DNA from: Candidatus Zhuqueibacterota bacterium
Lineage (GTDB): Bacteria > Zhuqueibacterota > Zhuqueibacteria > Residuimicrobiales > Oceaniaggregativiventaceae
Length of the DNA: 64,000 nucleotides
Direction: 5' to 3'
NCBI GenBank assembly: GCA_014728115.1
Contig: WJME01000336.1
Location: 1-64,000, forward strand
The position numbers were made by a program, and so were the translations under genes. Each line of letters starts with the position of its first letter. Position 1 is the stretch's first letter. Below the pieces are notes generated by a model that did no database searches, was not told the DNA's origin, and was given only the letters and a program-made list of their open reading frames with translations. Positions 59,032-61,363 of this stretch are shown here, in pieces.

Positions 59032-59613
59032 ATGAAAGCTCGCATACAAAAACAAATCGAATTCATCCTGGAAATCGACAAGCTCAAACACATTTTGCGT
59101 CAATCCTATCTGTTACAAAATCTCCGGCGGGAAAACTCTGCCGAGCACAGCTGGCAGTTGGCACTTATGGCCATGGTGCTCGCCGAATATAGCGATGAAT
59201 CCATCGACCTGCTGCATGTGATCCGCATGGCGCTGGTGCATGATATCGTAGAGATCGATGCCGGGGATACCTACTGTTACGGCGATCAATCGGATAAATC
59301 CCAAAAGGAACAAGCAGCAGCCGAACGGTTATATGGTCTTTTGCCGGACGACCAGGCAAAAGAACTGCATGCGCTCTGGATGGAATTCGAGACCCGTGAA
59401 ACCCCGGAAGCCCGCTTTGCCGCTGCCCTGGACCGGCTCATGCCGCTGTTGCTCAATTACCACACCCAGGGCCAATCCTGGCTCGAACACGGCGTGCGCA
59501 AGGACCAGGTGCTGGAACGGAACTGCCACATCGCCGAAGGATCTAAAGAGTTATGGGACTATGCGGAAACGCTGATTCAAGATGCCGTAAAGAAGGGATT
59601 TTTGCTTGAATAG
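59032..59613 (+). CDS. HD-domain phosphohydrolase (YfbR-like)
   Basis: ENSAEHSWQLALMAMVLAEY (H), RMALVHDIVEIDAGDTYCYG (HD). Confidence 0.9.
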   Translation: MKARIQKQIEFILEIDKLKHILRQSYLLQNLRRENSAEHSWQLALMAMVLAEYSDESIDLLHVIRMALVHDIVEIDAGDTYCYGDQSDKSQKEQAAAERLYGLLPDDQAKELHALWMEFETRETPEARFAAALDRLMPLLLNYHTQGQSWLEHGVRKDQVLERNCHIAEGSKELWDYAETLIQDAVKKGFLLE

Positions 59614-59633
59614 GCAAAAGAGCAAAACTCGAT

Positions 59634-59777
59634 AATCATGATCATTTAGGACCGCTACGGCTCTGCCACCTCGGCAGTCCTCTACAATACCTGCTGGTTA
59701 TTTTAAGTTACTTTTATTTCTTATTTCAGCCACATTGTTCAGCGCCGCGGTGCCAGGATCCTGCGCGGACTCGGCAA
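59634..59777 (+). repeat. partial direct copy of a ~265-bp intergenic structured repeat
   Basis: GGACCGCTACGGCTCTG...TCAGCCACATTGTTCAGCGCCGCGGTGCCAGGATCCTGCGCGGACTCGG closely matches 59817-59960. Confidence 0.8.
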
Positions 59778-59829
59778 CATTTTCCTTTTCAGAGCCTTGG
59801 TTCTTTGATGTTCTGTAATCGTGATCATT

Positions 59830-60094
59830 GGGGACCGCTTCGGCTCTGGCCCCGCGGCCGTCCTATACATTTCCTGCTGGTTATTTTAGTTTACTTTTAT
59901 TTCTTATTTCGGCCACATTGTTCAGCGCCGCGGTGCCAGGATCCTGCGCGGGCTCGGACGCGCTTCCCCCTGGACCATGCAGAGATCCTTTTAAGCTCAG
60001 TAAAAATTTGTGCGCCTGGGTTATGATCTTGACATTCCCTAATGCATGGCCCAGGGGGCGATCGCGCCTCGCTATCATTTAGGAAAAAGCTCTA
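59830..60094 (+). repeat. full-length copy (left arm) of ~265-bp structured repeat
   Basis: Starts GGGGACCGC, ends GGAAAAAGCTCTA; internal stem CCCCCTGGACCATGCA (59966-59981) / TGCATGGCCCAGGGGG (60043-60058). Confidence 0.8.
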
Positions 60095-60276
60095 TAAATA
60101 ATGGTTCGGATGAATTGGATTTTCCCTATTGTTACCATTTTATCTCTCCCCTTTTTGTTTTTTATCACTTGATCTCTGACATTGGATATCTGATCGCCTC
60201 TAGCGAGCTTTGTCTTTGAGTAATTCTGCTCTATCCAGAAATCTGAAACCATATATTTAATATAGTGTATCGGTTG

Positions 60277-60539
60277 TAGAGCTTTTTCCCCACATTCAGC
60301 GAGGGGCGATCGCCCCCGGAGCCATGCATAGACAAGCTCAAAAGGCAAGAGGGAGATATAAAGTCCGCTGAAACAAAAGGGTATCCTGCATGGCGCAGGG
60401 GGAAGCGCCACGAGCCCGCGTAGGATCCTGGACCCGCGGCTCCTGAAGAGTATGACAAGAAAAAGAAATAAAACCAAACCAAAATGGTCATCAGGAAACA
60501 ATAAAGAATAGCCGCGGAGACAGAGCCGGAGCGGTCCCC
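60277..60539 (-). repeat. inverted, diverged full-length copy (right arm) of the ~265-bp repeat
   Basis: Starts TAGAGCTTTTTCC (inverse of 60082-60094), ends GCGGTCCCC; stem arms at 60313-60328 and 60387-60402. Confidence 0.78.
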
Positions 60540-60805
60540 AAATATCAAAGTCTGGACCTAAAAAAACACTCGACTAAAGAATAGGACTATCGACGAATCT
60601 GCAAAGGATCCTGGCACCGCCACAACTATAACTGAAAAGCAGGGGCTAAAACAGACAATTACAGGCAACACAACCCAAATAGCACCACCGGGATTGCTGC
60701 ATACAGTAAAGTTGTTTAGTAGAGTAAACAGCGAAATGAACAAACCCTCTACCTGGCATTCAATAAGAAGTATGATAAAAATTGTCAACGTTGGGAGACA
60801 GTATC

Positions 60806-61363
60806 ATGAAATTTTTAGCCAGCGTTTTGGTGACAATTCTGGGTTTTGCCGTGGCAGCGTTAATTGTCATGTATAGCGGCGCTGTCAGTGTCAGCGTGCT
60901 GGATAAACCTTCCGCATTTCAATCCTGGATTCTTTCCACAACCATGGAAAATTCGGTCAACTCTCGTGCCGGGGATATCACAGTACCAGACCTGGAAAAA
61001 GAAGTGATGATAGAAACCGGCGCTACACATTATGTGACCATGTGCCAAACATGTCACGGGGCACCTGGCGTAAATTTATCTGCAATGGCAAGGGGCCTGG
61101 AACCCATCCCCCCTTTGCTATATCACAAAGAGGAAGCCGAAGAATGGAGCGCTGCAGAAAAATTCTGGATTACCAAAAACGGAATCATGATGACTGGTAT
61201 GCCATCATGGGGCGTTACCCATTCGGATGAGGAGATATGGGCGATTGTGGCTTTCTTACAAAAGTTGCCCGGGTTGTCAGAAGCAAAGTACAAAACAATG
61301 ACGCAGAGCACAAAAACTGAATCTGGCCATTCGCATGCTGACGGCGATGGACATAGTCATTGA
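60806..61363 (+). CDS. membrane-anchored c-type cytochrome, His-rich C-terminus
   Basis: N-terminal TM; TMCQTCHGAPGVNLSAMARGLEP (CXXCH), MTGMPSWGVTHSDEEIWAIVAFLQKLPG; C-terminal GHSHADGDGHSH. Confidence 0.92.
   Translation: MKFLASVLVTILGFAVAALIVMYSGAVSVSVLDKPSAFQSWILSTTMENSVNSRAGDITVPDLEKEVMIETGATHYVTMCQTCHGAPGVNLSAMARGLEPIPPLLYHKEEAEEWSAAEKFWITKNGIMMTGMPSWGVTHSDEEIWAIVAFLQKLPGLSEAKYKTMTQSTKTESGHSHADGDGHSH

Follow-up and report, generated by a model that had tools for sequence, protein, structure and literature searches.

Which kind of element is the large imperfect palindrome between an HD-domain gene (ending at 59613) and a cytochrome c gene (from 60782) in a bacterium of the phylum Zhuqueibacterota (candidate division KSB1), and is its fold read as RNA or as DNA? 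The locus belongs to a window of 64,000 nucleotides, i.e., the whole stretch of DNA that was analysed (positions 1 to 64,000 of contig WJME01000336.1). A sequence-only reading had described a 265-bp unit with an inverted copy, common 13-bp inner ends, a tandem partial copy and complementary arms, and re-alignment reproduced all of these repeats together with their coordinates. The unit was verified at 59830-60094 (plus strand) by repeat comparison, and its inverted copy at 60277-60539 (minus strand) is 71% identical (E 1.7e-28); both have the inner end GGAAAAAGCTCTA / TAGAGCTTTTTCC in common and flank a spacer (60095-60276) that is not repeated. The tandem partial copy (59634-59777, plus strand; 59633-59774 in the repeat comparison) is 89% identical to 59816-59957 over 142 nt and comprises hairpin 1 only, with a covariance-model match at 59647-59775 (E 3.1e-14). 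Besides the complementary arms CCCCCTGGACCATGCA (59966-59981) and TGCATGGCCCAGGGGG (60043-60058), each unit contains a second conserved pairing, that of GGGGACCGC.. (59830) with GCGGGCTC (59948-59955), and therefore a first hairpin (59830-59955) precedes the one to which the arms belong (59960-60065).

Both hairpins lie on the plus strand in the left unit and are built alike. In hairpin 1, which is supported by a covariance-model match at 59830-59958 (E 4.7e-16), by pair counts and by its fold, the basal helix is formed by CCGC (59835-59838) with GCGG (59948-59951) and GG (59842-59843) with CC (59943-59944), followed by an internal loop of CT (59844-59845) facing GAT (59940-59942) and by the variable stem A above it. 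In hairpin 2, supported by the arms and by basal-helix alternatives across copies, GCG (59960-59962) pairs with CGC (60063-60065), CT (59963-59964) faces GAT (60060-60062), and the arms themselves constitute the variable stem B. The 3' box and tail GCCTCGCTATCATTTAGGAAAAAGCTCTA (60066-60094, plus strand) are conserved across copies. In the inverted unit the corresponding hairpins are found at 60409-60539 and ~60290-60408, respectively (covariance-model E 9.7e-15). The palindrome as such is real, but its previously proposed size of ~0.7 kb is too small: when the left block is aligned locally with the reverse-complemented right block (59684-60097 against ~60697-60274), the match runs through the partial and the full unit, so that the tandem copy has a degenerate right-hand counterpart (60560-60697, minus strand, with the core GGTGCCAGGATCC at ~60605-60618) and the palindrome extends over ~1.0 kb (~59.63-60.70 kb). 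This counterpart is supported by the co-linear alignment and is not significant alone, since the short right-hand match reached 33 vs 36-41 in simple letter shuffles. It is probable that the locus holds three copies of a dispersed, non-autonomous KSB1 repeat plus a degenerate fourth one, the inverted pair perhaps going back to two units that were duplicated together, head to head.

The further copies that the sequence-only reading had suggested searching for exist in number. With the 265-bp unit as query, 30 matches were obtained in the same genome, some of which are pieces of one copy, giving about 28-30 copies; the 5' box CCGCTCCGGCTCTGTCCCCGC occurs there 29 times with up to three mismatches, compared to 0 for the reversed control, and it is also present in all three other genomes of the same family. 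The copies follow a common plan of about 280 bp with two hairpins: the 5' box is followed by the variable stem A, the core GGATCCTGCGCGGGCTC and the variable stem B, and the unit closes with the 3' box GATCGCG..CTCGCT and the tail. When 82 genomes of the phylum were scanned with a covariance model of hairpin 1, about 130 matches of 58-154 nt were obtained in nine genomes from four taxonomic families, and none in the other 73 genomes. The four genomes of the family itself contain 22, 17, 19, and 15 matches, the genome G037 from a second family in the same order contains 23, G032 and G033, which are congeneric and belong to another family of the class, contain 14 and 16, and G050 and G028 contain three and one, respectively. 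Stem sequences are species-specific, and the stem types that have risen in copy number in bursts differ from one species to the next. Homology ends sharply at the unit boundaries, the flanks are unrelated, and the sites are intergenic next to diverse genes; several copies coincide with contig ends in these draft genomes. Among 4227 Rfam families no match reached the gathering score in the window, and within 59300-60900 there was none even with E values of up to 1; an exact-pattern scan of viral contigs and a plasmid search gave no match either. Occurrences of the 5' box outside KSB1 were rejected as a sign of wider spread, as they have neither core nor 3' box. Since no such KSB1 repeat was found in the literature searched, the repeat is, within that literature, previously undescribed. 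Many unrelated sites, sharp ends and presence or absence between close species define it as a non-autonomous mobile element in the general sense.

The evidence for structure is comparative; taken singly, a copy has no remarkable folding energy (z -1.5 as RNA, -1.3 as DNA), and these single-copy values, being too weak, were left out of the argument. In 36 aligned hairpin 1 copies, 83.6% of the paired cells were complementary vs 77.4±0.7 after shuffling and 34-57% when the alignment was slid by 1-3 columns, 14 of 24 pairs had changes on both sides vs 8.9±1.2, and 64 cells showed double changes vs 27±4.4; none of 500 shuffles reached the three observed values, with a shuffle control that ignores relatedness. 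For this reason more weight is given to independent replacements. The basal helix of hairpin 1 occurs as CCGC/GCGG, CGCC/GGCG, and CGGC/GCCG, that of hairpin 2 as GCG/CGC, GAG/CTC, AAG/CTT, and ACG/CGT, and in 93 copies, among which there are 33 different stem starts, Watson-Crick pairs make up 810 of 928 cells. The 2x3 internal loop, in which a 5' CT faces a 3' GAT, is retained by hairpin 1 and by the majority of hairpin 2 copies, although a GGT variant with CCTCC/GGGGT also occurs, and a 3x3 loop TCC/T(G/C)C is, like CT/GAT, retained in nearly all copies. The foot of each hairpin is thus a CT/GAT loop over a short basal helix beside a repeated GCTCCG motif, which together with TRGGG is the consensus motif in the 36 and in 60 further copies; the stem above is free in sequence and length and almost always paired. 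Above the constant foot, pairing is required of the stem, with hardly any constraint on its sequence or length. Covariation and, in relatives, arm pairing are therefore present, and together with the further copies they support the proposal of a non-autonomous, non-coding structured element. That the copies have diverged while their arms stayed mostly complementary is right as far as pairing is concerned; it is not the slow drift of one stem, as whole stems were replaced by unrelated ones.

Such a replacement can be seen at an orthologous site of the two congeneric genomes (G032:C280 and G033:C40): the boxes are conserved and the flank upstream shows 97% identity, yet the two stems are wholly different and each is self-pairing. 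This is one of several element positions common to these two genomes; at another one the stem has a nested extra piece, and at a third the stem is identical. Nested stems (CTCGCCCTTTAAAACGGG-TCTCGCCCC...) were found at site 3, and stem types are common to positions A and B. Positions also differ between congeneric species, e.g., the element 3' of a gene in G032:C202 is absent from the counterpart G033:C308. In G003, one copy of a duplicated flank ends in a full unit and the other, 1.8 kb away, in a unit with hairpin 2 only, which is the outcome expected of recombination between GCTCCG motifs. Empty-site comparisons yielded no exact insertion junction, as the breaks at polymorphic sites carry extra changes, and on inspection neither terminal inverted repeats nor target duplications were seen: the aligned copy ends are not complementary and the flanks are not duplicated. 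The upstream flank is T-rich, with 56% T in 8 nt vs 37% further out. A TTGAT-like sequence precedes many copies in the genome of the window (G000) but is not kept in G002 and G003, and a TTGAT target is therefore not claimed. The CACCTATCGC hairpin was considered as an independent mobile palindrome and rejected, as all of its occurrences in the genome lie inside the element. Other repeats are found nearby. A second interspersed repeat (TGTCATGCTGTAAGCATCTTTGTCGG...GCGATTTC...CTTTCTGAT) often lies directly upstream of the element and also occurs alone (L082 5626-5740, 6740-6800, and 6924-7035; L083 10497-10600), and in G003 the element is adjoined by 4.2 tandem copies of a 66-bp hairpin repeat (L140 705-982). 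At a G032 site matching a G033 element (L322, G032:C48) a different long hairpin (GTCATTCTGAGC...GCTCAGAATGAC) is present instead, which suggests intergenic insertion hot spots.

The sequence-only reading had also thought of a non-coding RNA, which finds no support. Under selection on an RNA stem, the transcribed strand is expected to show many G·U and few A·C. Among the stem mismatches, however, there were 38 G·T vs 48 A·C (p = 0.33), G·T amounting to 2.7% of standard pairs; with no excess of G·T over A·C, the counts agree better with a structure formed at the level of DNA than with an RNA transcribed from one strand. The gene upstream has the same orientation as the element in 30 cases and the opposite one in 27, and the gene gaps holding copies are 32 tandem, nine divergent, and nine convergent; the orientation counts use model coordinates together with crude ORF calling, the former replacing an earlier loose pattern scan that gave false sites inside genes. 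Wobble counts and random orientation favor a DNA-level structure and are compatible also with an RNA. If selection acted on the fold of an RNA, be it a structured non-coding RNA in many copies or an element within transcripts, the conserved internal loops, the polarity and the strong covariation that are found here would be expected, but given the wobble counts, the absence of any orientation bias towards neighboring genes and of an Rfam match, and the copy-number bursts that involve other stem types in every species, this is an unlikely explanation.

Rather improbable is also that there is no selection on the fold at all, and that replication template switching and gene conversion maintained the complementarity of long quasi-palindromes, whose copies were spread by recombination. 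A pure palindrome-perfecting process would erase the loops, so the retention of the non-complementary CT/GAT and TCC/T(G/C)C loops in nearly all copies counts against it, as do basal helices of 3-4 bp that covary in several ways, even though the nested stems and the stems common to positions A and B resemble switching or conversion. Finally, the repeat might belong, in degenerate or divergent form, to a known class of mobilized hairpins (REP/BIME, IS200/IS605-derived or attC-like). It has the same general build with constant foot, variable tip, species-specific subfamilies and intergenic location, and the T-rich flank and the TTGAT-like sequence before many G000 copies point in the same direction; yet it is 7-10 times longer than a REP, lacks a GTAG/CGTC tag, does not avoid divergent gene pairs as REPs do, has no GTTRRRY core in its consensus, and its boxes are absent from IS200 loci, which makes this origin very doubtful.

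We therefore consider it fairly likely that the KSB1 repeat is a REP-like, non-autonomous mobile repeat that is recognized as folded single-stranded DNA by a putative trans-acting enzyme. The foot would then be the putative recognition site of this enzyme on the folded single strand, by analogy to REP or IS200/IS605 hairpins, which are read by HUH transposases, and the upper stem might serve as a double-stranded handle only and could thus be swapped freely by drift and by recombination between the constant boxes. A more tentative possibility is that it represents a distinct class of folded single-stranded DNA mobile repeats with a putative enzyme of its own, for which constant loop and foot would be the target and the tips cassettes swapped in place. 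Neighborhood and phylogenetic profile revealed no transposase linked to the element: Y1_Tnp is present in eight of the nine element-bearing genomes and also in 62 of the 73 without it, none of the eight Y1_Tnp loci in the genome of the window is framed by the element's boxes, and these boxes are absent from the IS200 tnpA / Y1 loci on C150, C220, C47, and C11. One 5' box lies ~600 bp from a RAYT ORF on C41 of the same genome, and the RAYT at G000:C162 has its own REP, GGGGTCGGACCTC. In the window, a GGGGTCGGACCTCAG motif at 58679-58693 matches the REP flanking the RAYT gene at G000:C162, and a further RAYT is flanked by another REP type (GCCTCCCGGAGGC / CCTCCGGGAGGC; L077 flanks, G000:C212). 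One G001 copy is located ~370 bp upstream of an IS110-family transposase gene (L090 5633-7608). An IS110 bridge RNA was rejected, as this is a single case and constant loops with variable stems are the reverse of a guide RNA. Altogether, a large, well-delimited structured repeat family is added from an uncultured phylum, and its ~130 natural variants can be used for finding what a structure-reading enzyme needs.

Compared to known systems, the KSB1 repeat resembles the structured RNAs of Rfam in its covarying helices and conserved internal loops, but differs from them by random orientation, no wobble preference and no family match. ERIC/IRU, BOX, and NEMIS-type repeats are intergenic non-autonomous miniature elements of hundred-base size, modular and with internal length variants. 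The KSB1 repeat agrees with them in all of these features, but has a constant foot with free stems, and neither the terminal inverted repeats nor the target duplication typical of MITE/ERIC-type elements were seen (for enterobacterial repeat units, ERIC/IRU, see PMC2759123). IS200/IS605-derived non-autonomous elements have subterminal hairpins and no terminal inverted repeats (PMC6006769), to which the hairpins, the ends and possibly the TTGAT-like flank in the genome of the window correspond, whereas the tnpA loci of this genome are without KSB1 hairpins, no ends in common with a tnpA-carrying copy were found and the flank motif is not kept in G002 and G003. The GTTRRRY / RYYYAAC core boxes of integron attC sites are absent from the consensus, and the copies do not separate gene cassettes. 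REPs are 20-40 bp in length, mostly carry GTAG or CGTC tags and are located mainly downstream of genes; in the GTAG/CGTC super-families the palindrome has the unpaired tag at one end (PMC3733652). REP, BIME, and REPIN are believed to be mobilized in trans, in the form of single-stranded DNA, by RAYT (TnpA-REP; PMC3733652, PMC2817692, PMC3116915, PMC8266576). Like these, the KSB1 repeat is an imperfect palindrome that occurs between genes in many copies, falls into species-specific subfamilies, has an unpaired motif at its foot and is found in pairs and inverted pairs. Unlike a REP, it has ~280 bp and two hairpins in place of a tagged palindrome of 20-40 bp, GCTCCG instead of GTAG/CGTC, a CT/GAT loop and stems replaced as blocks; it is as common in divergent as in convergent gaps rather than downstream in tandem or convergent ones, and it has no linked RAYT flanked by the same repeat, the genome having separate RAYT REPs. 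New with respect to REPs are the fixed loop and foot with freely exchangeable stems and the exchange caught at an orthologous site. REP/BIME is the closest kind, and the repeat fits the supposed working of REPs but should not be filed as a REP; if this is confirmed, REP-like biology would extend beyond GTAG/CGTC tags and RAYTs.
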